Shown: piece by piece, positions 5,273 to 33,000 of the stretch
Layout: each line of letters begins with the position of its first letter
Position numbering within the stretch: position 1 is the stretch's first letter
DNA from: Gammaproteobacteria bacterium
GTDB taxonomy: Bacteria; Pseudomonadota; Gammaproteobacteria; Pseudomonadales; Azotimanducaceae
Assembly (NCBI GenBank): GCA_005799745.1
Contig: SYFY01000191.1
Location: 1-64,000, forward strand
Reading direction: 5' to 3'
Length of the DNA stretch: 64,000 nt
Made by a program: the position numbers and the translations under genes
Notes under the pieces: generated by a model
Seen by the model: the letters and a program-made list of their open reading frames with translations, nothing else
Told to the model about the DNA's origin: nothing
Databases searched by the model: none

Positions 5273-6268
5273 TCAAAGCATCACCCGCAAGGCCGCTGAA
5301 GGTGGATGGGATTCAAGATAGACCTGCTCATCCAAGTAACGATCCGGGAAACGGCAGAGATGATGTTTCATCAGCGACAGCACCGCAAGCAAAGGCTGTT
5401 CGCCTAGACGGTAGCTCTGAATGAGCGCTGCAAGCTCTTGCCGCGTCGCGCTGTCGAGGTCATTTTTGAGGTAGCCCTGGATGTGAGAAAGCACATTGGC
5501 ATGACCCTGGCGCGTCGCCGGTCTCGCTAACCCTGCCATCAACTCGAGAATGTAAGCCGCTGCTTTAGCCTCAACCTGACCTTTCAGATCGGCCAACAGG
5601 CGTCCCACCTGCTGATAGGCGTTAATACTGTGTGCCATGAGCAGGTACTTGTAGCGACTGTGAAATCCGATTAATCCGGCCGCCGTCATACCGGCTTCTT
5701 CTAATGTCCGCCAGTGAGCGTAGGCAAAGACGCGGGTTACGAAGTTCTCACAGAGCACCGGATCTTCCAGACGCCCTGACTCTTCACCGGGTAAAGCGGG
5801 CCAAGTCCGCGTTATCGCCTCAGCAAAAACACCTCGTCCTCTATGTACAGGTATTGAACGATCCGCGGTGAGAGTTTCCGACTCTGGGTAGACCTTGACC
5901 CGAAAAAGGCCACAGCTAGGTGAGTTCTTCATAAACACATAACCGACGATTCCCTCCTGGCGAAGACGGTCTGCGGCATTTATCCCGAACTGTGCAAGCG
6001 CATCCGTAACATCTTGATTACGGTCAGTGACGCCAACTGCTCGTGGTGATTCCGTGGTCCCGACCAACCGAATGGGCGGGCGCGGCACCGGCATGCCAAT
6101 CGCCATTTCGGGGCAGACGGGTAACAGTTCGAAAAGACCGGCAAGCCGCTCATGGGGATAGGAAGAACGGGCGCCACTGCCATCATAACGAACCGCAGCA
6201 CCCGTCAAACACTCGCTAACGGCAATCTTGAGTGGCGCCGTCGGGCGCGGCGGTAAAACGTCTTTCAC
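5273..6268 (-). CDS. DUF523 and DUF1722 two-domain protein (YbgA-like)
   Basis: About 331 residues if read from GTG at 6268, which overlaps the stop of the upstream acyl-CoA dehydrogenase by four bases (GTGA). The N-terminal half is DUF523: IAVSECLTG, VRYDGS, LLPVCPE and NSPSCG, whose conserved cysteines suggest metal or cluster binding. The C-terminal half is DUF1722, with FHSRYKYLLMAHS, SHIQGYLK and the closing RFPDRYLDEQVYLESHP. The combined architecture is common in gammaproteobacteria, often near photolyase or stress genes. Its biochemical role is not established. A longer in-frame ATG at 6340 would overlap the upstream gene by about 75 bases and is less likely. Confidence 0.88.
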   Translation of the reverse strand: MKDVLPPRPTAPLKIAVSECLTGAAVRYDGSGARSSYPHERLAGLFELLPVCPEMAIGMPVPRPPIRLVGTTESPRAVGVTDRNQDVTDALAQFGINAADRLRQEGIVGYVFMKNSPSCGLFRVKVYPESETLTADRSIPVHRGRGVFAEAITRTWPALPGEESGRLEDPVLCENFVTRVFAYAHWRTLEEAGMTAAGLIGFHSRYKYLLMAHSINAYQQVGRLLADLKGQVEAKAAAYILELMAGLARPATRQGHANVLSHIQGYLKNDLDSATRQELAALIQSYRLGEQPLLAVLSLMKHHLCRFPDRYLDEQVYLESHPPSAALRVML

Positions 6269-7242
6269 CGCCCGGTGACAAACGACCATACGTGATCGGC
6301 ACCCACACCCGCAATCATGGCGCCGAGGCTGCGTTGCCAATCAAACTCATTGCCAAACTCATCCCGCCAAGCCCACGCCCTTCGCGTGAAGTGATGCAAC
6401 CGGTGTTCATGGGTATAACCGATGGCGCCGAGCACCTGGTGAGCGGCTTCACCGACCATGGTTGCTGCATCACCAGCACGAATTTTCGCGGCCGCAATTT
6501 CGGCAGCCGCTCTCGGCGTATCGAGCGCGTCGACGGCGCCGGTAGCAGCCCGTCGGGCTGCCGCAACTTCCGCAGCCTGAACCGCGAGGGAATGCTGGAT
6601 CGCCTGGAATTTGCTTAAGCTCCGGCCAAATTGCTCACGCTCACCAGCATATTGCAGCGCGATATCCAGCACCGTGGACAAGGCACCGGCCGTTTGCACC
6701 GCACGCGCCAATGCGAGTTGAGACCAAGCATTGCCGTGATTCAAACGAATCGTGTGACGGCTCGCGCCCTCCGGAACCCTCACCACATCACGCGGTTCCC
6801 CAGCGAGATTCGCACTTCGCTCAATGACTTCAACCTGTTCAACGATGACACATTCCGCAGAATCGGGACGAATACCAATGACGCGCGTCGAACTTCGGCC
6901 CCAGGGCACGTCAGTGATGCGTTGACCTTCCCACAGCCCGATGCTGGACACACCTTCTGACAAGCCGACCCACGCATTGGCCAGAAGTGTCTCCGCCAGA
7001 GGTAGTGGCGCAGCATGCCGTCCAGCCACATCGAGCAACGCAAAGAGTTCGACAACACCTGTGCCACTGTCCTTGGAACCTACGGCGTGGAAACCGGTTG
7101 CGACGACTGAAGCCCAGAGGCTTTGCGCAAACTCCCCACGCTCTGCCGCATCCAGAAGCCCTTTATCGACGCTGTCGCCAAACAGGCGGTTGGCGGTGTC
7201 AATGATGATGCTGAGCTGTTCATTCATGTTGTTATCACTCAT
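6265..7242 (-). CDS. Acyl-CoA dehydrogenase, smaller partner subunit
   Basis: This 325-residue protein has the acyl-CoA dehydrogenase fold but a degenerate N-terminal region. The C-terminal helical domain is clear: YAGEREQFGRSLSKFQAIQH and HQVLGAIGYTHEHRLHHFTRR, which carry the FAD-interface Arg and Gln and the late glycine-rich segment. It follows a second dehydrogenase (7239-8375) with an ATGA overlap, the arrangement known for alpha2-beta2 heterotetrameric dehydrogenases in steroid and other bulky acyl-CoA degradation. I infer that this is the partner chain. The DUF523 gene overlaps downstream through GTGA. Confidence 0.85.
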   Translation of the reverse strand: MSDNNMNEQLSIIIDTANRLFGDSVDKGLLDAAERGEFAQSLWASVVATGFHAVGSKDSGTGVVELFALLDVAGRHAAPLPLAETLLANAWVGLSEGVSSIGLWEGQRITDVPWGRSSTRVIGIRPDSAECVIVEQVEVIERSANLAGEPRDVVRVPEGASRHTIRLNHGNAWSQLALARAVQTAGALSTVLDIALQYAGEREQFGRSLSKFQAIQHSLAVQAAEVAAARRAATGAVDALDTPRAAAEIAAAKIRAGDAATMVGEAAHQVLGAIGYTHEHRLHHFTRRAWAWRDEFGNEFDWQRSLGAMIAGVGADHVWSFVTGR

Positions 7243-8375
7243 CGCAGACCCAGCCCCCGGGCAATCACGCCACGCAGAATTTCCCGCGTGCCGCCGCGTA
7301 ATGTGAACGACGGCGACAGCAGCTGGGTTTGTTCAAAGGCACTACGCCACGCCGCTCGACCCGATCGATTCGAGGACAACGCCAGCCGCGTCATTTCCGG
7401 CAGCAGCTTCTCGTAGTTGTTACCGAGCTCCTTGACGAGCGCGGCTTCAACATCCACCTGCTTACCTTGATTGAGCATGCCTGCAACCGAGGCGGACATT
7501 TTTCGCAGCGTCATCAGGTGTCCTGCTGCACGACCGATCACCGCCGCTTCGTGAGGCAGTGGATTCGGACCCACCAGACGAACAAATTCAACCAGCACAC
7601 GAAAGGCCGACAGGAATCGTTCCGGACCACTGCGCTCATAAGAAAGCTCGCTGGTGACCTGCTTCCAGCCGTTGCCGGCCTCACCAACGATGCGATCCTC
7701 CGGCACCAGGACATCCTGAAACACGATCTCGTTGAAGTCCTCGCCGCCCGCCATGTTGCGGATGGGTCGCACCTGGGCACCGTCGTTGCGCAAATCGACG
7801 ATGATCTGTGACAAGCCCACATGCCGGTTCTCACCTTGAGCAGGGCTCGTTCGCACCAACGCGATCAGGAAGTGGTTGCGATGCGCATCGGTCGTCCAGA
7901 TCTTGCTGCCATTGATCACCCAACCCCCATCCACCTTTTTGGCTGCGGTGCGCACCGACGCGAGATCCGAGCCGGTATTGGGTTCGCTCATACCGATGGA
8001 GAAGTACGACTCTCCCCGGGTAATGGCAGGAAGGTAAGTCTGTTTTTGTTTTTCGCTGCCGAACTTGAGCAACAGCGACCCACTCTGTCGATCCGCAATC
8101 CAGTGCGCACTGACCGGCGCGCCCGCTGCCAACAGCTCTTCTGTGACCACATAACGATCAAAGAACGTGCGTTCGCTGCCACCGAACGATTTCGGCCAGG
8201 TCATACCGATCCAGCCCCGCGCGCCTAATGCGGCGGAAAATTCAGGGCTATGTCCGGTGGTGAAATCCGAGTTGGGCTCCCCAATCAGATCACGGTGTTG
8301 TTGAAGAAACGCGCGCGCGTCAACACGCAGCGCTTCGCTCGATTCGGGCAAGGAAACCCGATCCAGTTCCAGCAT
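7239..8375 (-). CDS. Acyl-CoA dehydrogenase, larger partner subunit
   Basis: This 378-residue flavoprotein dehydrogenase oxidises an acyl-CoA to the 2-enoyl-CoA. It has the full family pattern: GWIGMTWPKSFGG, the substrate/FAD signature SIGMSEPNTGSDLASVRT, INGSKIWTT, the conserved NMAGGEDFNEIVFQDVLVP and a C-terminal GGTREILRGVIARGLGLR. It is the first gene of a minus-strand run of three overlapping genes. An 8-base inverted repeat lies 24 bases before its ATG and may be an operator. The native substrate cannot be read from sequence; pairing with a small partner argues for a bulky one. Confidence 0.9.
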   Translation of the reverse strand: MLELDRVSLPESSEALRVDARAFLQQHRDLIGEPNSDFTTGHSPEFSAALGARGWIGMTWPKSFGGSERTFFDRYVVTEELLAAGAPVSAHWIADRQSGSLLLKFGSEKQKQTYLPAITRGESYFSIGMSEPNTGSDLASVRTAAKKVDGGWVINGSKIWTTDAHRNHFLIALVRTSPAQGENRHVGLSQIIVDLRNDGAQVRPIRNMAGGEDFNEIVFQDVLVPEDRIVGEAGNGWKQVTSELSYERSGPERFLSAFRVLVEFVRLVGPNPLPHEAAVIGRAAGHLMTLRKMSASVAGMLNQGKQVDVEAALVKELGNNYEKLLPEMTRLALSSNRSGRAAWRSAFEQTQLLSPSFTLRGGTREILRGVIARGLGLR

Positions 8376-10014: not shown

Positions 10015-10662
10015 ATGCAGCAGGGCTGGCGGGAAGCACCCATATCAAGAGGCTTGGTCGCCTTCGTCGCGACAACGATCCTCTGCGTCGGCTTTACCGT
10101 GCAGGCCTTTCAAACCGACAACAACCTCGCCATTCCGGTGTTTCTGGTGGCGCTCACCGTCTCCAATCTCGCCACGCATCGTGGACTAACGCTGCTGATT
10201 GCGGCCATTGCCTCGGCCATGTTGGCAACTGCATATGCCACTGAACTCCTGCCGCTCCTTGAAAGTTCTGCGGGTGGCAGAGTCCCCGAAGATTTCCTGA
10301 TCGCGCTCGCGGCGATCAGGATCGCGACGTCCATTCTGCTCTAGGATCCTCGTCGAAAATCCGTAACGCTCGATGCCTTGAACCATGCATTCGCTAATGC
10401 GCCGGCTGGCATGTTGATGGTGAGTGATCGTGGGCAGGTCATTAACGTCAACGCAACACTGCTACAGATGCTCGCCATGGAACGAGAAGTAGTGGCGGAG
10501 GGTGTGGAAACCGCTGAGCAATTGCATTTCCTTGAAAGTCAGTCCTGCGACTACGTCCAGGGCTATTTCTTTAGCCGACCCGTTTCATTGGACAACTTCA
10601 AGAAGCTGCTTGCGCCCAACATCGCGATGTTGCGCAACGGTGAACAGCGCCTCAACGGCTAA
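10015..10662 (+). pseudogene. Remnant of a membrane PAS-(GGDEF)-EAL signalling protein
   Basis: One reading frame runs from 10015 to 10662 with a single TAG at 10342-10344. The first part has three hydrophobic segments, as in a membrane sensor. After the TAG comes the start of a PAS domain (FANAPAGMLMVSDRGQVINV), then, within about 20 residues, the extreme C-terminus of an EAL domain (VAEGVETAEQLHFL, VQGYFFSRPVS). A normal protein would have the rest of the PAS domain and about 400 residues of GGDEF and EAL between these points. I infer an in-frame internal deletion near 10490 plus a nonsense codon, so cyclic-di-GMP enzymology is lost. Confidence 0.8.
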
Positions 10663-10680: not shown

Positions 10681-12420
10681 CTAGCGGGGGTAAAGCACCT
10701 CGTGGGCCTGGCTGAACCGCTCCACAATTCGTCGTGACTCCAACGTGTCCGCCGCAATTTCTCCCGCCGGCGTGAACTGATGTCCTGCAACCGTCCACTG
10801 ATAGAACCTGCCTCCTCGAGCGAGAATCGTGAGGCGGTCATTCAGCAGCTCGCCCACGTGATAATCGTGTTCAATCCAAACAGGACCATCTTGGCCATCC
10901 AATAACGAAGGCGCCCAGAACTGCTCCTTTGTCGGGAGATGGAAAAGGCTGAGTAGCGTCGTAGCGATGCCGGTACTGGATCCACGCTCGGTGATTACCG
11001 CGGGCTGCACCTCGGGAGAAGAAATCAGCAGCATGGGAATTCGATAACTTTCGACCGGAATCAGGCTGTCTCCATAGATCCTCGGTGCATGATCGGCGAT
11101 AACGACAAAAACCGTGTCATCAAACCAATTTCGTTTGCGCGCTTCAGCAAAAAACCAGCCGAGGGCAGAATCTGCATAACGCATCGCTGCCTGCAGAGAC
11201 CGCTGCTCTGCATTAGCCTCCCCCGACGGCACAACAAAGGGGCGGTGGTTACTAACGGTGAGCGTCGACAGAAATATGGGCTGCGCGGCAAGCGTGAGTT
11301 CATCCATCAGCCCGAGCACGTGCGCAAAAAGATCACGATCACTGACACCCCAACTGGTTTCAAAGGTGCCTTCGGGAAAATCATAACGGCTCGTGGTTTT
11401 TTCAAACCCGATGCCTTGCCAATAGGGCGTGAAATTCGAGAAGCCAGGCCAGCCGCCATAGGCAAACACCGTCTTGAAACCGTGGTCGCGAAACGCCCGG
11501 GGAAGTGACGGCAGGCGTTCAAATCCCTTGCGCTCGGTAGCAGAAATCCCCGGTAACGGCACAAACCCGTTGAGGATGGACTCCATGCCACGCGTCGTTC
11601 GAGTACCTGCGGCGTAGACGTTATCGAACCGCAGCCCCTCCCCTGCTAACGCCGAAAACGCCGGGAGGTGCAGCGCGCGTTCCTTCGGATCCTCCCAAGT
11701 CTTTCCAGCAAAGGATTCCTCGATGATGAGCACCACATGTTTGGCATCGACGCTGACCATCGGTGGCAACGAAGGTTCCGCTTTGAACGCTTCTCGCGCT
11801 GGCGTGACACCTGGAAACAATCCGTTCCACCGTGTTTCGTTCACACGCGCCGCGGTCAATATACCCACGTATCCGTTACTCGCAAGCTGCGTCAGCAGGC
11901 GTGATTGTTCGATTACCGGTTGTCCACTCAGCCAGGCGGCAATGCCCGCACCAAGCCACACAACTGCAACACTGCGTAGCGACAATTCAGGTGGTTCAGC
12001 TAATAGCCGTGCCAACAGCACCACGATGAGGGCGAAAGGAATCAGAATCCACTTCAGGTAGAACTGCTCCTCCAGAAAGACGAGCACCTCAACTGGATAG
12101 GCCAGATAGTGGAAAACCAAACGATCCAGTCGCGCCTGAAACTCAAACCAAAAAAACACTTCAGCGATCGCCACGATAAGTACAACCGCGATCACCACAC
12201 CGGACACGACCCAACGAAACCATGGTCGTGAACTCAAGCAGCCGAGCGCCAGCAGGCAGCTCACCATCAACAACGCCACCGCATCGGCCAGCACACCGTT
12301 TATCCATACGTGTATCCACGCAGCTGCGGGCACCGAATCCAACGAGAAAGCTGTGAAAGCACGAATGGCCAACAAAAGCCCAAGGAAAAACAGCGGAAAA
12401 CGCCAGATGAACGCCGTCAT
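10681..12420 (-). CDS. LtaS-family membrane phosphoglycerol transferase / sulfatase-fold protein
   Basis: A 579-residue inner-membrane enzyme with about four or five N-terminal membrane helices (residues 5-165) and a C-terminal extracytoplasmic alkaline-phosphatase-fold domain. Active-site elements are visible: IIEESFAGK near residue 235, the nucleophile region AGTRTTRGMES (Thr at about 275-276), and VVIADHAPR near the end. The family transfers phosphoglycerol or phosphoethanolamine from phospholipid head groups to acceptors such as glucans or lipid A. It starts within the stop of the RND gene (ATGA) and ends the TRAP-Mla-RND operon, so an envelope lipid role is likely. The acceptor is unknown. 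Confidence 0.85.
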   Translation of the reverse strand: MTAFIWRFPLFFLGLLLAIRAFTAFSLDSVPAAAWIHVWINGVLADAVALLMVSCLLALGCLSSRPWFRWVVSGVVIAVVLIVAIAEVFFWFEFQARLDRLVFHYLAYPVEVLVFLEEQFYLKWILIPFALIVVLLARLLAEPPELSLRSVAVVWLGAGIAAWLSGQPVIEQSRLLTQLASNGYVGILTAARVNETRWNGLFPGVTPAREAFKAEPSLPPMVSVDAKHVVLIIEESFAGKTWEDPKERALHLPAFSALAGEGLRFDNVYAAGTRTTRGMESILNGFVPLPGISATERKGFERLPSLPRAFRDHGFKTVFAYGGWPGFSNFTPYWQGIGFEKTTSRYDFPEGTFETSWGVSDRDLFAHVLGLMDELTLAAQPIFLSTLTVSNHRPFVVPSGEANAEQRSLQAAMRYADSALGWFFAEARKRNWFDDTVFVVIADHAPRIYGDSLIPVESYRIPMLLISSPEVQPAVITERGSSTGIATTLLSLFHLPTKEQFWAPSLLDGQDGPVWIEHDYHVGELLNDRLTILARGGRFYQWTVAGHQFTPAGEIAADTLESRRIVERFSQAHEVLYPR

Positions 12421-14936
12421 CGAGCTGGCTTGAGCAGTACAGGCAGCAGGAAAATCGCGAACAACAACAGAAGGCCCACCGCGAGGGTCAGATAGAGACC
12501 GATGGATGCTGTACCGACATGGGGAGATAACATCAACGAAGCAAACGCACCAACCGTGGTCAACGTACTCAGCATCACCGCACGTGGTGTGCTGGAGTGC
12601 ATGAGACCGGCCACATCTCCACCTTGGTGATAGCGGTGATAAACGTGAATGCCGTTGTCTACTCCGAGCCCAAAGATCAGCGGCAACACCAGGATATTAG
12701 CCATATTCAGCGGTGCGCCGATCAGTTCTCCAACGGCCAGCGTGAAGAGGCCGGCGAGCAACAGCGGCACTGAAATCAGGAAGGCACTCTTCAGACTGCG
12801 GAACATGATGAGGAGAATGAGCAGGATGACGCCCGCCGCGGTGAGCGTCGCCTGGATAAACGAGCCGATTACAATCTCGCCCGCGCCCTTTTCGATCACC
12901 GGTCGACCTGTCGCGGTAGGCGCAATGGTATGAACACTGTCGATAAATTCGCCGAGGGAAGCGACGTCCGTTATGTCGTCACGTGGTGTGATGACCGACA
13001 GATGACGTCCATCCGCCGTAACCAGGCGATGCACGAGATCCGGCGGCAGGTCATCGAACGTGACCGGTTCCATGGACAGTGCGCGAGACAACCAATCAAG
13101 CTCTTTTTGAAGCGGCTCAACCACATCGCCTTGCCAGGCCATCAGCGGTTCATCAGGAAGTGCGGCAAGCTTCCGCCAGGTCGCTACACCTTCGAGGTTT
13201 TTTGATTCGAGCTGGTCTGCGAACTCCGTGATGGCTTCTCGCAGCGCCTGGGCGCCTGGCGCTTCAGCCACCTCCAGTGGCATCAACGCACTCTCGAGTA
13301 GCAGATTTAACTCCTCGATCACATAACGCTTGTCGTCCTGATCATTCGGCACGTAGTCCGCAGGAGTCAGAACCGAATCCACCATGGGCAGCGCTTCTAA
13401 CGCCTCGATATTAAGCTCTCCGGGTTGATGCACCACGTACAAGGCATAGTCCGTCGCGACACCTTCTCGCTGCAGGAATCGCAACATGCGCATGGACTCG
13501 GTGTTCTCATCACGCAGTGCGAGTACGCTGTAATCAAACTGCGCACGCGACGCAAACACGGTGGCGATGACCGCGGCGATGGATATGACGCCGATCACCC
13601 AGCGGCGATGCGCGATCAACTTGCGCACGATAGCGTCACTGCTGGGCATCTCCAGACGATGTGCACGCACAGGACCACTCAACACATAGACGGCCGGCAG
13701 TAACGTAAACGTCAGCCAGAGAGCAATGAGCATACCGGCAGCGGAGATCACGCCAAGGTCGGCAAGCCCACCATAACGTGTTGGCCAGAAGGCAAGAAAA
13801 CCGGCGGCCGTGGTGATCGCACACAAAGCAATCGCATCACCAACACCCTTCGCAGCGTGAATCAGTGCTTCCCCTACATCGTTGTGTTCACCGATCGATT
13901 CTTGATAACGCAGCGAATAATGCAGCGAGTAGTCCACACCCAAGCCGAAGAACATCACGATGAAAACGAGCGACAGCGTATTGAATTCGCCGATGGTTGA
14001 CATCGCAAACGCCGTGGTGAAGATCACGCCGACGAGGAGCTTCAGTAATGTCGTCAGTACGATTTTCCAGGAGCGCACACCGATGATCATCATCAGCGCG
14101 AGCACCGCGGTGGACAACCAACCCGCGAGGTTCACACCGCCCGTCGCCGCCTGGATTTCTTCATGAGTGAGTGCAATTTCACCGGTGACACCAACTTCCA
14201 CCCCCGGTGCTCGTTTGACGCTCTTGATCGCTTCATCGAGAAGCGCCAAAAGCTCAGCACTCGGCAGAGACACATCAAAGTTTGGCTTGCCCTTCAACGT
14301 AATCACGCGAATCTGCGGCGGATCCGGTGAAAAAAGTTCATCCGTCCACGCCACCCGCGCCGGTTCACCGGCAAGCGCACGTTCGCCACTCTTCGTGACA
14401 AGTTCCAGCACGGTCGCGAACATTTCTGCGTCATCGGCGTTCTCAACCGCGTCACCCAGAACTTCAAGAACACCACGTAGCGACGGGTCTTCGGCGATGG
14501 CTGTCAATACCGGCTGGGCATCGGCGAGTCGTTCTGACATCTCATCGAGATCTTCGGCGGACAGATACAGCAAGGCGCGGTCACGCAAGAAATCGAGATT
14601 TTGGGGTGCTGAGACCGCGACAAATTTCGACTGCGCGCGGATCGCCACTTCCAGCGCTTTTGCCGCGGCTTCAACGTCGCCAAAAGAATCGCCATGAACG
14701 ACAACGACTGCGGTCTTTAGTTGGTCGGGGAACGCCGCTTCAAAATCATCGAAGTGACCGCGCCAGGTGGAGCTTTGGTCGATAAGGTTCGAGAGTTCGG
14801 AATTGATGCGGAACTTTTCGAAGGAATACACCCCACACACCACCGTGAGCAGAGTGAGCAGACCCAAGGTGACGCGTGGATTACGGCAAACCCAGGCCAC
14901 GTAGGCGACGAGCGCATTCAGAAAGGCCTGCGTCAT
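12417..14936 (-). CDS. RND/MMPL-family lipid-type transporter (HpnN-like)
   Basis: This 839-residue protein has the two-fold RND architecture: one N-terminal helix, a periplasmic loop of about 200 residues, five clustered helices with the MFFGLGVDYSLHYSLRY motif, then a repeat of the same plan with LPLIFGLGVDNGIHVYHRYHQ. The GxxxD motifs are typical of MMPL/HpnN-type exporters of lipids (hopanoids, glycolipids) rather than drug-efflux AcrB. It needs no ATP and would use the proton gradient. It begins inside the mlaA stop (ATGA) and overlaps the LtaS-type gene by four bases. No hopanoid synthesis gene is present in the window. Confidence 0.88.
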   Translation of the reverse strand: MTQAFLNALVAYVAWVCRNPRVTLGLLTLLTVVCGVYSFEKFRINSELSNLIDQSSTWRGHFDDFEAAFPDQLKTAVVVVHGDSFGDVEAAAKALEVAIRAQSKFVAVSAPQNLDFLRDRALLYLSAEDLDEMSERLADAQPVLTAIAEDPSLRGVLEVLGDAVENADDAEMFATVLELVTKSGERALAGEPARVAWTDELFSPDPPQIRVITLKGKPNFDVSLPSAELLALLDEAIKSVKRAPGVEVGVTGEIALTHEEIQAATGGVNLAGWLSTAVLALMMIIGVRSWKIVLTTLLKLLVGVIFTTAFAMSTIGEFNTLSLVFIVMFFGLGVDYSLHYSLRYQESIGEHNDVGEALIHAAKGVGDAIALCAITTAAGFLAFWPTRYGGLADLGVISAAGMLIALWLTFTLLPAVYVLSGPVRAHRLEMPSSDAIVRKLIAHRRWVIGVISIAAVIATVFASRAQFDYSVLALRDENTESMRMLRFLQREGVATDYALYVVHQPGELNIEALEALPMVDSVLTPADYVPNDQDDKRYVIEELNLLLESALMPLEVAEAPGAQALREAITEFADQLESKNLEGVATWRKLAALPDEPLMAWQGDVVEPLQKELDWLSRALSMEPVTFDDLPPDLVHRLVTADGRHLSVITPRDDITDVASLGEFIDSVHTIAPTATGRPVIEKGAGEIVIGSFIQATLTAAGVILLILLIMFRSLKSAFLISVPLLLAGLFTLAVGELIGAPLNMANILVLPLIFGLGVDNGIHVYHRYHQGGDVAGLMHSSTPRAVMLSTLTTVGAFASLMLSPHVGTASIGLYLTLAVGLLLLFAIFLLPVLLKPAR

Positions 14937-15742
14937 TGCGGAGAGTTTCCGGAAGAATCCCCCGAAGAATCGCTCGCTTCGGTTTCGGCATCCAACACGG
15001 CTTCAAAGTCCTCTTCGAATTCCTCAAAGAGATCATCCACGGGCGGATCACCGTCGAAGGCCACGAATTTGCGCCGTTGGTACCAGGCATCTCGTGTGAA
15101 CACATAGGCATCGAGCGCAGTCTGGTCGCGGGCGTCGGACAATGGCAACGCATCGGCTCGGACGGACAAGAGGTCCATGGCGCCTACCCAGAAGGTATAA
15201 CCGCCACTCAAAATCACGCTGGGAATCCAGGACTTGAAGGCAGTACCGGGCGCATCTCGTATCGTTGCTGGACCTGAAGGCAGATAGATGTACCGGGTGC
15301 GGGTCACACCCCACACGGCGAGTGTCTGCCCAAAGTCCTCATCGTGGTGTTTGAGCCCCATCCGGCCACCCACTTCCAACAGTCCACCAAGCCCGAGCGT
15401 CGTGTTCACCAGGAGCCCGGCGAAGTCCTCTCCGGCATTTTTCGCCTTCCCCTGCAACAAACTGTTGGCGACGCTGTCGATCCGTCGAACATTCCGAAAA
15501 AAGTTGGTGACCCCTCGCTCTGCCCAGTCCGGCATGATTGTCTTGTAGCCCCGCGCTACCGGTGCGATTACCCGACGGTCAACCGCATCGATCGCCGTAT
15601 GGAACTTTCGATTGGTGGGCTCGAGTGGGTCATAGACCGCCCAGGGATCCCCCTCTAGCGTCGCGCAGCCGCCCATCAGCCCCGTGAAGACCAAGACCAG
15701 TGGGAGCAGGATCAGGCGTTTGAAGCTATCGCAGTTCTTCAA
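14933..15742 (-). CDS. mlaA: Outer-membrane lipid asymmetry lipoprotein MlaA (VacJ)
   Basis: MlaA sits in the outer membrane and removes misplaced phospholipids from its outer leaflet, passing them to MlaC. The MlaA/VacJ pattern is clear: DPLEPTNRKFHTAIDAVDR, VARGYKTIMPDWAERGVTNFF, NTTLGLGGLLEVGGRMGLK and EDFGQTLAVWGV. Reading from TTG at 15742 gives a lipoprotein signal ending LMGGC, and the start then overlaps mlaC by 17 bases. A longer ATG frame would lie deep inside mlaC and spoil the signal. An acidic tail (EEFEEDFEAV) closes the protein. The RND gene follows with an ATGA overlap. Confidence 0.92.
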   Translation of the reverse strand: MKNCDSFKRLILLPLVLVFTGLMGGCATLEGDPWAVYDPLEPTNRKFHTAIDAVDRRVIAPVARGYKTIMPDWAERGVTNFFRNVRRIDSVANSLLQGKAKNAGEDFAGLLVNTTLGLGGLLEVGGRMGLKHHDEDFGQTLAVWGVTRTRYIYLPSGPATIRDAPGTAFKSWIPSVILSGGYTFWVGAMDLLSVRADALPLSDARDQTALDAYVFTRDAWYQRRKFVAFDGDPPVDDLFEEFEEDFEAVLDAETEASDSSGDSSGNSPQ

Positions 15743-16289
15743 TGTTGCGCTCGATATGGGCCAGCAGTGCAGGAAATCCCTCACGACGCAAAATGCTGCC
15801 ATAGTCAGCGCGCCTAAGCGCAAGGTCGCTCACACCATCGGCGACGACATTGAAGATGCGACCATTACGAAAGTAGTAGTGCAGCGAAACTTTCTCGCCA
15901 TTGCTGCGCAGAATGTGGGACTTAACGACTGTACCACTCTTGCCCTTGACCTCGCCTTCGCTCACAAATTTCTGGTTCTCGAAACTGTCGAACCGATCCG
16001 CGTAAGTGGCGAGCGACAACTGGCGCAGGAGATCGACGATCTTCTTCTGCCCGTCGGCGCCAATCTTTTGCCATTCCCGACCAACGCTGACCTTGGCAAT
16101 GGACTCAAAGTCAAAGTTATCGACCACCACTTTTTCAACGATGCCGACCCGTTCGCTCGCCGTGCCACCATGTTTCATGGCCTTGATCAGCACCTCGTGC
16201 AGGGCATCAATTTGGGCCGCGGGTTCAGCCGCCCAAACCCACGGAGCAAGTGAAAACAGTGCAAGCAGCAGCAGCGTTCGAAGGTTCAT
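15726..16289 (-). CDS. mlaC: Periplasmic lipid shuttle MlaC (Ttg2D/HpnM-like)
   Basis: This 187-residue periplasmic protein has a signal peptide (MNLRTLLLLALFSLAPWVWA) followed by the Tol_Tol_Ttg2 fold: SIAKVSVGREWQKI, LRQLSLATYADRFDSF, then LHYYFRNGRIFNVVADGVSDLALRR in fragments typical of MlaC/HpnM. Such proteins ferry phospholipid or hopanoid between membranes. It starts inside the stop of dctM (ATGA). No MlaFEDB ABC complex is encoded here; the RND gene two positions downstream may supply the inner-membrane partner, as in hopanoid loci. That last point is inference. Confidence 0.92.
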   Translation of the reverse strand: MNLRTLLLLALFSLAPWVWAAEPAAQIDALHEVLIKAMKHGGTASERVGIVEKVVVDNFDFESIAKVSVGREWQKIGADGQKKIVDLLRQLSLATYADRFDSFENQKFVSEGEVKGKSGTVVKSHILRSNGEKVSLHYYFRNGRIFNVVADGVSDLALRRADYGSILRREGFPALLAHIERNIEELR

Positions 16290-17566
16290 TGCACAAACAC
16301 CAGAGATAGCCAAGGCACATAGGTGATGATCAATACCGCCAACAACAGCACCACGAAATACGGCCCGCAGGCGGAATACAGCTCCACCATGGACTTGCGA
16401 AAACGGTAACTCGCAATGAAGAGGTTCATACCAATGGGCGGCGTGAAATATCCGATCTGCATATTGGCCAGAAAAATAATCCCAAGGTGAACCGGGTGTA
16501 TGCCATAGCCAACTGCCACCGGCAACAAGAGCGGCACCATGATCACAGTGGCCGCAAAGATGTCGAGGATCGCTCCTAACACCAACAAGAGGATGTTCAA
16601 GAGCAGCAGGAACATCAACGGGCTCTGGACATAACCCTGCATGAAATCAAAGAGCTGCTGCGGCACCTGGGCGTCGATCAGGTAATTCGTGAACGCGAGG
16701 GCAACACCGAGGATGAGCAGAATTCCGCCGACTATGACCATGGACTCAACGACCAGCTTCGGCAGTGCTTTGATTTCGACATCCCGATACAACAACACTT
16801 CGGCCAGGACGACGTAAACCGCTGTCACTGCGGCAGCTTCAGAGATCGCGAATACGCCGCTGAAGACACCACCCAGCACTACAAACGGCAACGGAATCTC
16901 ATAACGCGCGGCCCAAAGTGCCCGTTTGAGTTCGGCCTTGGAAAACGGTTGGCGTTGAAGCCCACCACCGCGGTGTTTCCACAACGTGTAGGCAATCAGC
17001 AGCGACAACATCAGAAGCACCGGAAGGATGCCTGCTTTAAAGAGATCAACGATCGCAAAAGGCACGCCCACATCCATCTGCTGCGCGATAACGCCATAGA
17101 GAATCAAAGGCACCGATGGAAAGATCAGTAGACCCAGACTGCCCGACGAAGTGACGAGGCCCAGACTGAATTTTTCGCTGTAACCCTGACTCATCAGCGC
17201 CGGTAACAAAAGTGCACCGAGAGCCACGATGGTGACGCCACTCGCACCGGTTAACACGGTAAAGAGCGCACAAGCAATGAAACCCACCACAGCAAGTCCA
17301 GCAGGCATGCCCCCAAATAGACTCTGCACAACATCCACAAGACGCTGCGACGTCTGCGCAGCTGACAACACATAACCGGCAAACGTGAAGAGCGGCAGTG
17401 CGACCAGTAGCGGCGTATCCACAATACGGTAAAGCTCTATGGCGACGACGCTGAGATCGATCTCCGCTGTATGAAAACCCACCATCGCGCCCGCAAGGAT
17501 CACAGCAAACAGTGGCGCACCAGCCAGAGCCATGAGCACGACACCCAGAATGAGCAACATGGTCAT
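16286..17566 (-). CDS. dctM: TRAP transporter large membrane subunit
   Basis: A 426-residue DctM-type protein with about twelve membrane helices, the ion-coupled import channel of a tripartite TRAP transporter. Typical motifs are LPLFTFAGYVLS, LTGASGVTIVALGALLLPAL, IFPSVPLILYGVIAQ and the C-terminal IFLANMQIGYFTPPIGMNLF. The ATG at 17566 overlaps the stop of dctQ (ATGA); the longer frame runs into dctQ. It couples to DctQ and to the periplasmic receptor encoded upstream. Substrate unknown, but the TatT partner and downstream mlaC/mlaA suggest a hydrophobic ligand. Confidence 0.93.
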   Translation of the reverse strand: MTMLLILGVVLMALAGAPLFAVILAGAMVGFHTAEIDLSVVAIELYRIVDTPLLVALPLFTFAGYVLSAAQTSQRLVDVVQSLFGGMPAGLAVVGFIACALFTVLTGASGVTIVALGALLLPALMSQGYSEKFSLGLVTSSGSLGLLIFPSVPLILYGVIAQQMDVGVPFAIVDLFKAGILPVLLMLSLLIAYTLWKHRGGGLQRQPFSKAELKRALWAARYEIPLPFVVLGGVFSGVFAISEAAAVTAVYVVLAEVLLYRDVEIKALPKLVVESMVIVGGILLILGVALAFTNYLIDAQVPQQLFDFMQGYVQSPLMFLLLLNILLLVLGAILDIFAATVIMVPLLLPVAVGYGIHPVHLGIIFLANMQIGYFTPPIGMNLFIASYRFRKSMVELYSACGPYFVVLLLAVLIITYVPWLSLVFVQ

Positions 17567-18048
17567 GCTGACGGTTCCGTTTCGGGGGCTTGCTCGGGTC
17601 GTTCCGGCGGATTGAACACGTGTAGGAGGTAGCGAAGGCACATGACAGCGGCCGCTACCGGCATGATCGCTTCACACAACCACGCCGGAACTTCGGCGAA
17701 CGCCAAAATGCCATCCTCGTATTCAAGCTTCACGAACTGGAAGCTGAACCAGGCAAAGATCCCGAGGATGATCGCCGTGAGGAGCGAACCGATGCGTTGC
17801 ATCACTCGCTTACCCGCATCGGGTAGAAACTTCGACATCAGATCAATACGAATGTGATCATCGTTACGTGCCGCGACCATGGCGCCTAACATGGCAATCC
17901 ACAACACGATCACACGTACAAAGGCGTCACCCCAAGGTAGGCCACCGTCCAAGAACACCCGCGCCAGAACCTGCCACGCCGAAACCGCGATCATGCCGGC
18001 AAGCAGTAGAACGAGCAGTCCGGATTCGATGGCACGAAGCGCTTTCAA
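17563..18048 (-). CDS. dctQ: TRAP transporter small membrane subunit
   Basis: A 161-residue DctQ-type protein with four membrane helices. It has the family motifs VSAWQVLARVFLDGGLPWGD and VLWIAMLGAMVAARNDDHI, then FSFQFVKLEYEDG. DctQ pairs with DctM in the inner membrane. The start is TTG at 18048 with GGAGG eight bases before it. The gene follows the receptor gene by 27 bases and overlaps dctM by four. Confidence 0.92.
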   Translation of the reverse strand: MKALRAIESGLLVLLLAGMIAVSAWQVLARVFLDGGLPWGDAFVRVIVLWIAMLGAMVAARNDDHIRIDLMSKFLPDAGKRVMQRIGSLLTAIILGIFAWFSFQFVKLEYEDGILAFAEVPAWLCEAIMPVAAAVMCLRYLLHVFNPPERPEQAPETEPSA

Positions 18049-18075
18049 CGTTGACCTCCGTGCGGGTGTCAGGGA

Positions 18076-19092
18076 TCAGGGCGCGCTGCGCAGGCGAGCG
18101 AGTTCCGTCTGAAAATCCGCATACAGTTTGGCACTGATAAACCCTTCGGCCGCGAACCGGTCATTAGCCGCCTTTGCGAGTGACCGCCACTCTGCTGTTT
18201 GTTCAGGTGTAGGGGTAATCCACGCTACACCCTGAGCACCTACTGCAGCTCGAGCACTCGCATCATCTTTCTTCGCCAGTGCATCCACCTGCGCAACCGC
18301 ATCAGCGAGCACCTTTCTGACGACCGCTTGATCGGCGTCCGACAACTTGTTAAATGCCTTCCCTTGGACCGCAAGAGTGCCGTAGACATACATCAACGGC
18401 ATGTCCACGGCGTGTTTCACCTGCGTGTACCACTGCAGCGCAATCGCGCCGACAGGTGGCGCGGCGATCGTGTTGATGAGCCCCGTTTGCAAACCTGTCA
18501 GCACATCCGCAATAGAGAGGGGAATGCCGCTCAGGCCAAAACTGCTCATCAGGCGTGTTGCGCCCGGATCGTTATCCGGAATCCAGATTTTTTGTTGTTT
18601 GACTTCAGCAACCCCACGCACGGGTGATTGCGACATGATGTAGGCGAAACCAATCTCAGCGATGCCGAATCCCTCGAAACCCCTAACACGAAGACCCTCG
18701 ACCAATCGTTGATCGAAGACTTTGCGAACCGCTTCAGCTTCTTCACGCGAGTTGAACACCAGCGGCAAGCTGTACATCTGAAAATCCGGGTCGATGCCAA
18801 CAAGACCACCTGACGTAAACGTTGCACCATGCAACTGGCCGGTGCGAATCTTGCGCAGCACCGCCTTGTCATCACCCATCACACCACCGGGATAGAACTT
18901 GAGCTGCACGCGCCCAGCCGTTTCCGTTTCGATGGTTTTGCCGGATACTCGCAACTGCTTCATCCACACGGAACCATCCGGTGAAACTGCAGCGATTTTG
19001 AGCACCGTCGCCGACCAGGCGAAGAGCGGCATGCACAGCAGAACTGCGAACGTGCAGCGAACGACGTAGGAGAGGGGTTTAGAAGTAATCAT
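18076..19092 (-). CDS. dctP: TRAP transporter periplasmic substrate-binding protein
   Basis: A 338-residue DctP/TatP-type receptor with a signal peptide ending near AWSA. It then has VLKIAAVSPDGSVWMKQL, the conserved GRVQLKFYPGGVMGDD and LRKIRTGQLHGATFTSGGL of TRAP receptors, and a late IPLSIADVLTGLQTGLINTI. It captures the ligand in the periplasm for DctQM. The usual ligand arginine sits in the PxRG/NPxG-type region, read here as SPVRGVAEV. ATG at 19092 overlaps the end of the TatT gene by 14 bases. This receptor type associated with TatT was proposed, from Treponema work, to bind hydrophobic molecules. Confidence 0.92.
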   Translation of the reverse strand: MITSKPLSYVVRCTFAVLLCMPLFAWSATVLKIAAVSPDGSVWMKQLRVSGKTIETETAGRVQLKFYPGGVMGDDKAVLRKIRTGQLHGATFTSGGLVGIDPDFQMYSLPLVFNSREEAEAVRKVFDQRLVEGLRVRGFEGFGIAEIGFAYIMSQSPVRGVAEVKQQKIWIPDNDPGATRLMSSFGLSGIPLSIADVLTGLQTGLINTIAAPPVGAIALQWYTQVKHAVDMPLMYVYGTLAVQGKAFNKLSDADQAVVRKVLADAVAQVDALAKKDDASARAAVGAQGVAWITPTPEQTAEWRSLAKAANDRFAAEGFISAKLYADFQTELARLRSAP

Positions 19093-19930
19093 CAGCCGAT
19101 TCCATGAGTGAACGCGCCCGACCTTGGGCGACAACGTTGATTAAAGTGAGCCCTGGGCTTTTTGCATCCGCGGCCAGCACTTCGCCGAGCAATCGATCAT
19201 GCAGCTCGCGATCAAAGACGAGCCGAGCATAACTTTCCGCATACATCACCTTAGTCAGCAGATGACGGCCATTGGAGAGTTCTGTCGCCTTTTCAAAATG
19301 GGCTTGGCCAACCTCGGGCTTACCGCCCATCGCCGGTGGAAACAACGTTTCGAAAACGCCGAGATAGAGATGTGCACCTCCTTGGTCGAGCGTCTCATCG
19401 AGCTCAACAACCCTTTGCATCAGTGCCTTCACGCGGGCGAGCTGGGCAATGGCGTTGAAGTCATCACTATGCACCTGCATCCAGCCGGCCCACGTTGAAC
19501 CAAGACCGTAGAGCAGCGCCGCGTCATCCTCGTCACGCTCGGTAAGCCAGGCATTAAAGGTCGACAGTTCAATCTTCTCGAGATCGCAGCCGTTATCGAT
19601 TTCTTCACATACGGCTTTCTTGGCAAGGTTAAGCGCCTTGGTGTGCATGCGGCGCGCGCGCTCCTTCTCTTCGACGAAGGCGCCTGCGTACGCCGAGTTA
19701 AGCCGTGCTGCTGTTGACAACAACGCTGCATCATCGGGACTGCCGGCGAGCAACCCATCAATCATGAGGAGATAGGCAGGCGCGCCATCTCGCACCAACT
19801 CGATGTCTTCACTATCGAGAATCGCGTTCGACAGGTTATCGGTAAAGCCCTGGGAAACGCCGGAAATAATGGAAGTACACCCGCTGCTGAGAACGATCAG
19901 CAGTAGGGCGGTCAATCGAAAAGTCAGCAC
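19079..19930 (-). CDS. TatT, TPR-like lipoprotein of a TPAT-type TRAP transporter
   Basis: This periplasmic lipoprotein of about 283 residues belongs to the TatT family. The diagnostic run is present: LYGLGSTWAGWMQVHSDD, ARVKALMQRVVELDE, GGAHLYLGVFETLFPPAMGG, and SYARLVFDRELHDRLL with the closing ESADDYF. TatT forms a TPR-like helical trimer that docks to the TRAP receptor. GTG at 19930 gives a clean lipoprotein signal with lipobox LSSGC; a GTG at 19978 is an alternative. It opens the TRAP-Mla-RND operon and lies 93 bases after the redoxin gene on the same strand. Confidence 0.9.
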   Translation of the reverse strand: MLTFRLTALLLIVLSSGCTSIISGVSQGFTDNLSNAILDSEDIELVRDGAPAYLLMIDGLLAGSPDDAALLSTAARLNSAYAGAFVEEKERARRMHTKALNLAKKAVCEEIDNGCDLEKIELSTFNAWLTERDEDDAALLYGLGSTWAGWMQVHSDDFNAIAQLARVKALMQRVVELDETLDQGGAHLYLGVFETLFPPAMGGKPEVGQAHFEKATELSNGRHLLTKVMYAESYARLVFDRELHDRLLGEVLAADAKSPGLTLINVVAQGRARSLMESADDYF

Positions 19931-20023: not shown

Positions 20024-20581
20024 TCAGTCCATCACGCGATCACGAACCACCGCAAGCACCTCTTCGAGAGGCGGCCGCTGACGATAACCCGGCACCGCAA
20101 AACGGGCCAGAACCTTGCCTTCCGGGCTAAGAAGCAGAATGCCCGGATGGGGAATGCCGTAGGCGCTATGACCCTCGGCGTACTCGGTGTTGCGAATCCC
20201 GAGGGCGCTCACGTGTTTTGCTTGATCGTCGTAAAGCAGTGGGTAACCCAGGGTCGATCGGTCATGGAACGCCTTGAGTTTGTCGACCGCGTCGTAGGTC
20301 ATGCCCGCAACGTTGACACCCAGGGCTTCAAAACTTGCTCGCTCACTTTCCAGTTGGACCAACTGGCGTTGACAGAAGGGTCACCAATCGGCGGAGCGGT
20401 TAAAAAAAACTAACAGCCCCTTGGCGCCAGTCATCGACTTAATGGTCTGGTAAGCACCGTTCTGATCGGCGGCTTCAAGGGAAACAACCGTGCCGTGGGC
20501 AGGACCCCAGGTCAACGATTCCGCGGCGATGGTGTGAGTTGCAATAAGCCACATCGTCGCGACTGAAAAGAGGCGTTTCAT
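20024..20581 (-). CDS. Periplasmic redoxin, candidate selenoprotein with in-frame TGA
   Basis: Read through one in-frame TGA (20381-20383), this is a 185-residue AhpC/TSA-like redoxin: signal peptide of about 20 residues (MKRLFSVATMW...), then VFFNRSADW, the TGA at residue 67, PFCQRQLVQLE, MTYDAVDKLKAF, YPLLYDD and AYGIPHPGILLL. Homologous proteins have Cys-Pro-Phe/Tyr-Cys here, so the TGA stands for the first active-site Cys, where selenocysteine is chemically expected. A 7-bp hairpin 14 bases after the TGA has bacterial SECIS geometry. Without recoding the product would be 66 residues and useless. A plain nonsense mutation or sequence error remains possible. It would act in periplasmic thiol or peroxide chemistry. 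Confidence 0.72.
20350..20366 (-). promoter_or_regulatory. SECIS-like hairpin just downstream of the in-frame TGA
   Basis: On the minus strand CCAGTTG and CAACTGG form a perfect 7-bp stem closed by the three-base loop GTC. It begins 14 bases after the TGA, so the loop is about 21 bases from the codon. Bacterial SECIS elements bound by SelB lie in the coding region directly after UGA, with a short loop having G among its first positions; this fits. The same bases also encode QLVQL, so chance symmetry cannot be excluded. Confidence 0.5.
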
Positions 20582-20612
20582 CGTTCTCAACGCATCGATC
20601 TCCACTTGTATG

Positions 20613-21367
20613 TCACTGAGTCCGTTTTGGTGTTGGAGCAAGCTCCGGAGGCCATTCTAACGTCGTCAGCACCCTCTCGACCCTGTTTACCTGGCGGTTG
20701 AGTGCCTTCTTCGCTTGCCTTCGGGGAACACCACGCACCCGTTTTTGCTTCATCGCCTTGAGGACATAACGCAGCTCAAGAAGCCGCTCGAGCAACATAA
20801 CCAGGGCGCGCAGTGCATCTCCTGCAGGACGCTCCATCAGCTCGCCGCTGTACGCCAACTGACGAAAGTCACGAACACGGTCGATTACCTCAGCGCACGA
20901 GAGTTTGGACACCGGCTGCTGAACTGAAGCCCAACAGGACTTCCACAGCACGTCGAGGACCACTCTACTGCCTCGCTTGCTGTCGTTCTGACTCGCGGCC
21001 GGGAAAATGGTTCCCGCACTCAGCGCGACGAGCCATCTAATGGTGGCCTCAGGCGACCAGCCATCTTTGGTGGAAATGCCCCACGTTTGCTGCAGAACAC
21101 GTGCCGCACCGGCTCGAGCAAAGCGCGCTTCCCCTTCAGCGAATACGTCGTTCAGAGCCGCCGATCAGGCTGTGACGAGAAGTCCATGACGCAGAGCTCG
21201 AGATCGAGCTTCGCCCATTCAAAGTGAATTCGCTGAAGCCGTTCCCATACGGGCGTGCTCTCTGCATGCAGCGCCGCGAGAAGTCCTGGCGCCCTCGAAT
21301 CCATGGCGGGTACCAGATCCTCGGTGTCCGCATCAGGGCCATATGCCTCAACCATCGCCCAGGTCAT
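20613..21367 (-). pseudogene. Hypothetical protein split by a one-base frameshift
   Basis: Two minus-strand frames make one continuous unrecognised protein of about 250 residues. The first runs from ATG 21367 (MTWAMVEAYGPDADTEDLVP) to a TGA just after SSQPDRRL. The second carries on without a start codon as SAALNDVFAEGEARFARAG, through GISTKDGWSPEATIRWLVAL, to a very basic, helical C-terminus rich in Arg and Lys, ending at 20613. The junction near 21166 is consistent with loss of one base (GATTCGG to GATCGG). I recognise no domain. It lies upstream of the redoxin on the same strand and may have been co-transcribed with it. Confidence 0.6.
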
Positions 21368-31797: not shown

Positions 31798-33000
31798 ATG
31801 GCCGGTCCGCTAACCGGATTTAAGATCGTCGACCTGTCGGCTGTGGTCTCGGGACCTTTTACCGGCGCACTGCTCGCTGATCAAGGCGCCGATGTGATCA
31901 AGGTTGAACGAGTCGGTTCTGGCGACATCCAGCGCCACGTCGGGAGTGCCCGTAACGGCTACTCCGGTTTTTTCCACGTGATCAACCGTGGTAAACGCAG
32001 CATCGCCGCCGACATCAGTAAGGCGGAAGGAAAGTCGATTGTTGAAGCGCTGGTGAAGGACGCTGACGTCATTATCCAGAACTTCAGGCCAGGTGTCGTG
32101 GATCGACTCGGCATTGGTTATGACGCGCTCTCGAAGATCAATCCGGGGCTCGTTTACTTAAGCATCAGCGGTTTCGGTCAGTCTGGTCCTCGTGCTGGTG
32201 ATCGCGCCTACGATCCGATCATTCAGGCTTACTCCGGCATCGGTGCCATTCAGGGACGCATTCATCGGGAACATCCGGAGAAGCCCGAACAGGTCAACAT
32301 GCTATTGCTCGACAAGTTGACCGCATGGACTGGTTTTCAGGCGGTCACTGCCGCATTACTCGCGCGCACCAAATCAGGTAAAGGCCAGCACATTGAGCTT
32401 TCAATGCTCGATACAGCCCTGCAATTCATCTGGGCAGATACAACCGCCGACATCATCCTGCAAGGTGACGACGTGGATCAGCGGCCGCCCGTGGGTGCAT
32501 CCGGCACCGTGCATCAGTTTCGCGACGGCTGGGGTGTCACCATGACGTTGTCCCAGGATGAGTTTGCCGGGATGTGTCGTGCTTTCGACATGGCTGATCT
32601 GGCAGGAGACCCCCGATTTTCAACGTTACAGGCACGAACGCAGAATCGACTCGCACTTCAGGATATCTATGCCGAACGCGCGGTGCCGGCCGCCGCACGT
32701 ATGACGGTGGCCGAAGCCACCGAAGCGATGCAACGAGAGGATGTGCCCTTTACTCGTTTTCGTACCCTGCCTGAGCTCGAAGCGGATCCGCAGATTCAGC
32801 ACAACGCCAATCTGCGGCACCGCACACACGCAGTAGCAGGGCATCTGATCGAGTCGCGCCCTGCGCCTATCTTCAGCGGCACACCACTGGAACTCACTCG
32901 GGATGCGCCAGCAGTGGGGCAACATACCCGAGAAATACTTGCGGAACTTAATCTCGCCGGTCACTACGACGACTGGCTCGCGAAGGGAGTGATTTCATGA
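31798..33000 (+). CDS. Class III (CaiB/BaiF) CoA transferase
   Basis: A 400-residue CoA transferase: VVSGPFTGALLADQGADVIKVE, NRGKRSIAADISK, NFRPGVVDRLGIGYD, SISGFGQSGPRAGDRAYDP and HIELSMLDTALQF, where the Asp is at the catalytic position. It moves CoA between two acyl groups by a covalent aspartyl-CoA intermediate. A strong AAAAGGGG precedes the ATG. Its stop overlaps the next start through ATGA. It probably activates the acid degraded by this operon; the substrate is unknown. Confidence 0.92.
   Translation: MAGPLTGFKIVDLSAVVSGPFTGALLADQGADVIKVERVGSGDIQRHVGSARNGYSGFFHVINRGKRSIAADISKAEGKSIVEALVKDADVIIQNFRPGVVDRLGIGYDALSKINPGLVYLSISGFGQSGPRAGDRAYDPIIQAYSGIGAIQGRIHREHPEKPEQVNMLLLDKLTAWTGFQAVTAALLARTKSGKGQHIELSMLDTALQFIWADTTADIILQGDDVDQRPPVGASGTVHQFRDGWGVTMTLSQDEFAGMCRAFDMADLAGDPRFSTLQARTQNRLALQDIYAERAVPAAARMTVAEATEAMQREDVPFTRFRTLPELEADPQIQHNANLRHRTHAVAGHLIESRPAPIFSGTPLELTRDAPAVGQHTREILAELNLAGHYDDWLAKGVIS

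Follow-up and report, generated by a model that had tools for sequence, protein, structure and literature searches.

What could a transporter of unsettled cargo share with a set of genes for moving envelope lipids, and why should the two be encoded together? The question is raised by a predicted operon within the 64,000 nucleotides (nt) analysed here (the window, positions 1 to 64,000 of contig SYFY01000191.1), which belong to a metagenome-assembled genome (MAG) of the gammaproteobacterial family Azotimanducaceae (GCA_005799745.1). In this operon the genes of a TatT-associated tripartite ATP-independent periplasmic (TRAP) transporter (TPAT) are followed by those of MlaC, MlaA, a resistance-nodulation-division (RND) pump and an LtaS-type enzyme. 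TPATs have already been proposed to bind hydrophobic ligands (PMC5812351, PMC4646407), and the available parts of the published work leave their exact ligands still to be established. As judged from its genes, the predicted operon falls into two modules that can be separated, one being a TPAT (TatT-DctP-DctQ-DctM) and the other a set of the hopanoid-export type (HpnM/MlaC-MlaA-HpnN-type RND). The eight packed minus-strand genes described in the initial annotation, which span 10681-19930, were borne out both by family models, each gene matching its named Pfam family above cut-off (Table 1), and by reading of the junctions. Four of these are 4-nt ATGA overlaps (dctQ/dctM, dctM/mlaC, mlaA/RND and RND/LtaS), tatT and dctP overlap by 14 nt, mlaC and mlaA by 17 nt provided that mlaA starts at the TTG at 15742, and dctP is separated from dctQ by 27 nt provided that dctQ starts at the TTG at 18048. 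Since the gene order is found again in other genera it is not an assembly accident, and a chance neighbourhood in one MAG is ruled out.

On the transporter side, TatT, a member of the TAtT family, is encoded together with DctP, DctQ and DctM, the combination that defines a TPAT, and the Cys of its lipobox-like end is nearly invariant in the alignment. The predicted TatT model (predicted local distance difference test score of 90.7) has TatT 4di3_A as its closest solved fold (Z 28.3, 253 residues aligned, 2.2 Å), with further matches to the TPAT protein 8g52 (Z 26.7), to PTPIP51 (Z 19.9) and to the sterol carrier BstC (Z 19.3); no publication describing structures 8g52/8g53 was found. The PTPIP51 resemblance concerns the TPR domain of that protein, which we take to be a eukaryotic lipid-transfer protein. 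For DctP the predicted fold is that of an ordinary TRAP binding protein (4oan_A, Z 33.4; Tp0957 3u65_A, Z 30.2), and the fold search does not set the TPAT DctP apart from other TRAP binding proteins. The conserved Arg by which these proteins select carboxylates, equivalent to Arg-147 of SiaP, has been reported in 5943 of 6142 sequences (96.8%), and in Tp0957, whose pocket is hydrophobic, it is replaced by Ala (available text of PMC4646407). The DctP of the window carries Trp184 at this position (numbering of the 352-residue open reading frame (ORF) starting at 19134) and so lacks the residue that marks a canonical carboxylate TRAP transporter. Trp occupies the site in 107 of 107 TPAT DctPs, the window protein included, these rows being restricted to loci from L013 on that score >300 bits in a purpose-built hidden Markov model; 105 of the 107 are distinct, and some repeat one genome reached by two routes. 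The equivalence of the site is indicated by an Arg in 5 of 5 displayed PDB alignments, and Arg is kept in this genome's two remaining DctPs as well as in one other DctP of L080. An ordinary carboxylate TRAP transporter is ruled out by the absent Arg; with Trp in its place, a small-acid ligand is argued against, and the residue suggests that the TPAT cargo is hydrophobic. Of the earlier reading that this TPAT may handle a lipid, two points are supported, its junction with envelope lipid-transport genes and a binding protein without the carboxylate-selecting Arg.

For the second module, the nearest NCBIfam model of the MlaC is HpnM (TIGR03481; 156.4 bits, just under the cut-off of 160.1) and that of the pump is HpnN (TIGR03480; 713.6 bits, under the curated cut-off of 751.85), so that the exporter first annotated as HpnN-like is indeed of the HpnN type, though slightly below the cut-off of the family. 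Models of the Bst sterol transporters are matched far under cut-off (TatT against BstC, 21.6 of 350 bits; RND against BstA, 184.8 of 1400). Trees were built with FastTree and carry local support values, the HpnN tree being unrooted. Of 97 HpnN sequences, 56 rows including the operon pump form one clade (local support 100) that lies apart from most hopanoid-cluster HpnN. In G682 (locus L228), a genome of the window's family, HpnN scores over cut-off and is placed with the hopanoid-cluster proteins, outside the operon clade. The clade contains an mlaC-hpnN lineage, one of the glycosyltransferase-hpnN type in which two members are TPAT-linked, and one of the mlaC-mlaA-hpnN type in which 24 of 30 rows are.

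The link to hopanoid export is also visible in gene order. By family models, L131 has a squalene-hopene cyclase, L132 has HpnH together with HpnB, and both L216 and L219 have HpnH, the HpnB match of L219 being below cut-off. The hopanoid cluster L132 reads hpnH-hpnB-mlaC-mlaA-X-hpnN, where X encodes a glycine-zipper protein of the 17-kDa-antigen type, and in L137 the order is the same but no hpnB was called. Of 40 HpnN loci of the class, 6 (L129, L132, L133, L137, L150 and L160) include MlaC as well as MlaA in the fetched region. In one member of the window's family, L219 (genus g462), hpnH and an hpnB-like gene are neighbours of mlaC-hpnN, and no TatT match was found in the genomes of L212, L216 and L219. 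A simple history would have the TPAT-bearing genera put a hopanoid-type export set to use for a different lipid; the direction of this reuse is one that we infer, because the HpnN tree is unrooted. No match to SQHop_cyclase_N (PF13249), a family that presumably covers both hopene and oxidosqualene cyclases, was found in the window's own genome (86% complete) or in the draft genomes of the 11 of 11 mlaCA-bearing operon relatives tested; among the 25 relatives tested overall there was one match, and the TPAT of that genome stands without the mlaC-mlaA-hpnN trio. As far as draft genomes allow, hopanoid or sterol synthesis is therefore not indicated, which makes a self-made hopanoid or sterol an unlikely cargo, and hopanoid export by a hopanoid producer was rejected as a likely explanation.

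The enzymes that accompany the pump give hints of another chemistry. The closest PDB match of the LtaS-type gene product is the uncharacterised protein VP1736 (3lxq; 3.3e-47), LtaS-family chains being matched at 1e-10 and weaker. Its Thr, His and Asp-His align with LtaS-family chains, and its Glu aligns only with 3lxq, since the other alignments start later; these would correspond to active-site residues of LtaS. Under NCBIfam the protein stays below the cut-offs for LtaS (39.5 bits against 970) and phosphoglycerol transferase I (41.3 against 572). Of 24 full-length TPAT-linked rows, 13 carry an LtaS-type gene after hpnN, 12 by an overlap-filtered rule plus L015, whose LtaS that rule had dropped. 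In 14 loci a GT4 glycosyltransferase gene stands directly before hpnN, two of them (L197 and L189) after a TPAT. The best models of the L197 enzyme are glucosamine-phosphatidylglycerol synthase (79 bits, cut-off 480) and the transferase of the lipoteichoic acid glycolipid anchor (75 bits, cut-off 460); the same two enzymes are the best models, likewise below cut-off, for the glycosyltransferase of L224. Both enzymes are hints of glycerolipids, neither match amounting to a family assignment. They bear on the proposal that the operon moves hopanoids or sterols acquired from other organisms, in a genome without a cyclase match, which is consistent with the nearness of RND and MlaC to HpnN and HpnM, with the BstC-like fold of TatT and with the HpnH and HpnB-like genes beside mlaC-hpnN in L219. 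Such a role is nevertheless improbable, given the position of the operon HpnN clade apart from most hopanoid-cluster pumps and the presence in the cassettes of an LtaS-type enzyme or of a glycosyltransferase that is best matched, below cut-off, by models of glycerolipid enzymes.

How widely the two modules are joined was assessed from both ends. In a TatT-seeded scan (the best 80 of 102 loci) all four TPAT genes were found in 73 loci, in the order T-P-Q-M in every one of these, and in the other seven DctP, DctQ or DctM was not detected; mlaC-mlaA follows dctM in 11 loci. Among 397 genomes drawn evenly from the phylum TatT was matched in 11, in eight of them over cut-off, these matches having 1.5-kb flanks that end short of the slot after dctM. 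The window's family was surveyed in 120 genomes of 37 genera, with a threshold of E <= 1e-60 for HpnN: TatT is over cut-off in 97, an HpnN-type pump is present in 57 and both are present in 49. In 23 of these 49 the two genes share a contig and a strand at a distance of 4.0 to 4.7 kb, and in G752, G747 and G696 the join is visible though split by contig ends. The mlaCA-hpnN join is thereby seen in 24 of the 120 genomes, from 10 genera (21 on a single contig, 3 across contig ends), and a glycosyltransferase-hpnN join occurs at the same site in two further genomes of one genus. Four genomes, G766 and G742 among them, have TatT and HpnN on one contig and not in one operon, and the window's own genome has one TatT. 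Repeated gain or loss is indicated by the DctP tree, on which the mlaCA label undergoes 11 changes, at least six of them by starred branches (L190 is marked MlaA there, though it does have MlaC). In the other half of that tree no mlaCA join was found, 39 loci, four of them from the window's family, being scored empty. L026, L028, L030 and L032, given without family assignment, nest among the family rows. Against the refuting condition set in the initial annotation, an order not conserved beyond close relatives, the tatT-dctPQM-mlaC-mlaA-RND order thus holds beyond the genus, in 10 genera, and was not seen outside the family's part of the DctP tree.

The join is placed in one recurring setting, not complete everywhere, that reads redoxin, TPAT, slot, PAS/GGDEF/EAL protein, YjbQ and acyl-CoA dehydrogenase. 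The slot holds mlaCA-hpnN with or without ltaS, glycosyltransferase-hpnN (L189, L197) or mlaA alone (L246). On the HpnN tree the TPAT-linked pumps fall into two lineages, so that pumps of lineage III, with mlaCA, and of lineage II, with the glycosyltransferase, have each been joined to the TPAT within one set of flanks (the TGA redoxin upstream, a PAS/GGDEF protein and YjbQ downstream); local replacement of one cassette by the other may be an alternative to two separate joins. In L246 (3613-4395, minus strand) the TPAT is followed by MlaA with no MlaC or HpnN alongside, and no HpnN match was found in that genome at E 1e-60. The stand-alone hpnN of L179 (6816-9493, minus strand), beside mlaC-mlaA-ltaS, is split into two reading frames, and is therefore a damaged copy or an assembly error.

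Taken together, these data lead us to propose, with confidence that is evenly balanced, that lipid export by RND-MlaC-MlaA is coupled to TRAP uptake of a hydrophobic ligand. The RND pump would take a non-hopanoid envelope lipid out of the inner membrane, MlaC would carry the exported lipid and MlaA would deliver it, the head group being possibly edited by the LtaS-type enzyme or, in the sister arrangement, by the glycosyltransferase. TatT and DctP would capture a hydrophobic ligand, whether a lipid, a product of its breakdown or a lipid from outside, and what was captured, perhaps the same lipid or its product, would be imported into the cell by DctQM; both halves, ion-driven, would form an export and uptake loop for one lipid class. 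The directions, the ligand and any exchange between the halves are what we infer here. A two-way ATP-free lipid cycle, in which the RND pump drives MlaC-MlaA outward, the lipid is edited and a Trp-gated TPAT re-imports it or its product, is rather unlikely.

Several observations weigh against such coupling. The slot after dctM is empty in close relatives, and empty slots are seen in L021, L027 and L034; on a separate branch, L213 and L245 have another same-strand gene after dctM (GAF-GGDEF in L245). The trio stands at the syntenic site without a TPAT in L221 and L235, where the ORFs before mlaC gave no Pfam or NCBIfam match where scanned and the redoxin is read in another frame; the mlaC-mlaA-hpnN-ltaS cassette stands without a TPAT elsewhere in L179, L209 and L223; and in the genomes of L024 and L025 the TPAT lies in one place and an mlaC-mlaA-hpnN cassette in another. 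The TPAT lacks mlaC-mlaA in 53 of the 64 judgeable TatT-seeded loci (those with at least 1.5 kb past dctM, the 16 of 80 with less, or without dctM, being left out). No operon link is visible in 23 of the 49 family genomes that have both TatT and HpnN, and eight family genomes have HpnN without TatT. Trp184, being common to all sampled TPATs, favours a hydrophobic ligand and is in itself no sign of a coupling with the trio, and synteny conserved inside a family can outlast function. The rival explanation is that two independent envelope modules, a hydrophobic-nutrient TPAT and an unrelated HpnM-MlaA-HpnN exporter, are co-regulated under one promoter with no shared substrate. It would account for the TPATs that stand alone in Alcanivorax, Desulfobacterales, Acidobacteriota and others, for the trio that stands alone in L179, L209, L221, L223 and L235, and for a slot that is filled, empty or swapped inside one family. 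We regard it as doubtful, however, as two HpnN lineages with different partners joined the TPAT at the same site, and a third lies about 7 and about 13 kb from dctM, on the opposite strand, in G766 and G742.

A further question is which motor the operon MlaC and MlaA would use. The initial annotation had stated that MlaFEDB is absent, which is correct within the operon and incorrect for the cell: contig C43 of the same genome (3.87 Mb in 218 contigs) encodes an ABC ATPase, MlaE, MlaD and MlaC in a row, and the ORF that follows looks like MlaB when judged by eye. The ABC engine has therefore not been lost from the cell. The suggestion that the TRAP permease replaces MlaFEDB, returning phospholipid to the inner membrane, could appeal to gene adjacency and to a binding protein without the selecting Arg; it was not borne out, and is very improbable in view of the C43 cluster, of the many judgeable TPATs that have no mlaC/mlaA beside them and of a DctP with the predicted fold of an ordinary TRAP binding protein. 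That the RND pump, rather than MlaFEDB, is the inner-membrane motor for the operon MlaC and MlaA, the TPAT having a side role, is a tentative alternative, to which we give somewhat less than an even chance. It agrees with the cohesion of mlaC-mlaA-hpnN with and without a TPAT, with the hopanoid clusters L132 and L137, which contain the same three genes, and with the grouped neighbouring genes, among which no mlaFED was noticed. Conversely, the C43 cluster could serve the operon MlaA too, and a stand-alone mlaC-hpnN lineage exists without an adjoining mlaA.

Several known systems resemble parts of this locus. The TatP(T)-TatT pair of Treponema pallidum (Tp0957-Tp0956) has the same TatT fold, a TRAP binding-protein fold and no selecting Arg; it differs in having Ala where Trp is found here (PMC4646407) and, according to the accessible portion of the published description, one dctQM homolog where dctQ and dctM are separate genes here, and it is the present TPAT that is joined to mlaC-mlaA-hpnN-ltaS. 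In Methylococcus capsulatus the cluster for the sterol carriers BstA-BstB-BstC likewise combines, for an envelope lipid, an RND pump with a periplasmic binding protein and a carrier of the TatT fold, and lipid trafficking has been suggested for T-component proteins (PMC10942540). Similarity extends to the BstC-like fold of TatT and a weak match of the RND pump to BstA. However, BstB is of the PhnD type and not a DctP, the available text of PMC10942540 describes no DctQM for Bst and does not mention Mla, and sterol genes adjoin bst whereas no cyclase was found here. Hopanoid transport by HpnN/HpnM shares with the operon an HpnN-/HpnM-like RND pump and MlaC, with the mlaC-mlaA-hpnN trio in L132 and L137; the operon proteins fall just under the family cut-offs, the pump belongs to a separate clade, no cyclase was found and the set is joined to a TPAT. 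The Mla pathway (MlaA-MlaC-MlaFEDB) contributes the MlaC and MlaA family members, which here adjoin an RND pump in an operon without MlaFEDB, the mlaF-E-D-C cluster lying separately in the genome. In AmeABCD of Castellaniella defragrans, too, an HAE3 RND pump is expressed together with partners in the periplasm and outer membrane, but these are DUF1302, DUF1329 and COG4447 proteins rather than MlaA/MlaC, and the cargo is monoterpenes (available text of PMC6394551). In open-licence PMC, among the matches listed, no publication was found that brings a TRAP transporter together with MlaC and MlaA, nor one in which a TPAT is coupled to an HpnM-MlaA-HpnN module.

Table 1. Genes of the predicted operon, its upstream neighbour and glycosyltransferase genes found before hpnN in other loci
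Feature	Locus	Positions	Strand	Evidence and remarks
tatT, TPR-type lipoprotein	window	19079..19930	-	PF16811 TAtT 6.5e-75; GTG start at 19930
dctP, TRAP binding protein	window	18076..19092	-	PF03480 3.8e-36
dctQ, TRAP small permease	window	17563..18048	-	PF04290 1.8e-27
dctM, TRAP large permease	window	16286..17566	-	PF06808 3e-75; TIGR00786 over cut-off
mlaC-family periplasmic lipid carrier, nearest HpnM	window	15726..16289	-	PF05494 7.8e-31; TIGR03481 156.4 bits
mlaA-family outer-membrane lipoprotein	window	14933..15742	-	PF04333 8.8e-56; TTG start likely
HpnN-type RND (HAE3) pump	window	12417..14936	-	MMPL 9.2e-28; TIGR03480 713.6 bits
LtaS/phosphoglycerol-transferase-type sulfatase-fold enzyme	window	10681..12420	-	PF00884 Sulfatase 6.5e-31
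Redoxin with in-frame TGA (SADW-TGA-PFC), likely selenoprotein	window	20024..20641	-	Recurring neighbour just upstream of tatT; operon membership uncertain
GT4 glycosyltransferase before hpnN	L197	6531-7685		
GT4 glycosyltransferase before hpnN	L189	10541-11701		
GT4 glycosyltransferase before hpnN	L224	6007-7269		

Other genes lie around the operon. The redoxin upstream of tatT is likely to represent a selenoprotein family that accompanies the TPAT: in 152 sequences scanned the motif pattern was matched in 38 loci, with TGA in all 38 and a Cys codon in none, and selB is over cut-off in the own genome. At 10015-10662 (plus strand) short ORFs run convergently to the operon end; in one of them just the final portion of an EAL domain is present, and they are likely a remnant of the PAS/GGDEF/EAL protein that relatives have in full. 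Acyl-CoA dehydrogenase-like gene pairs are located just downstream of the operon (6268-8375, minus strand) and at 32997-35257 (plus strand); three of these genes have only sub-cut-off names (IpdE2, pimeloyl-CoA dehydrogenase), the gene at 6268-7242 gave no match at E 1e-20, and a role of the pairs in the catabolism of cyclic or isoprenoid compounds is possible.

For the bacteria of this one family, known here mainly from environmental genomes, the locus constitutes a concrete and recurring genetic link from a transporter of unsettled cargo to a lipid module, which suggests that the cargo resembles a lipid, and it makes the cargo question testable, as it supplies environmental proteins for ligand-binding tests outside Treponema. 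The replacement of Arg by Trp provides a one-residue marker common to all TPAT binding proteins examined. The locus also suggests that MlaC and MlaA proteins may function next to an RND pump, with some hopanoid clusters as a parallel, and the ATP-free cycle, if true, would mean a natural cargo for TPATs and a second type of motor for Mla proteins.

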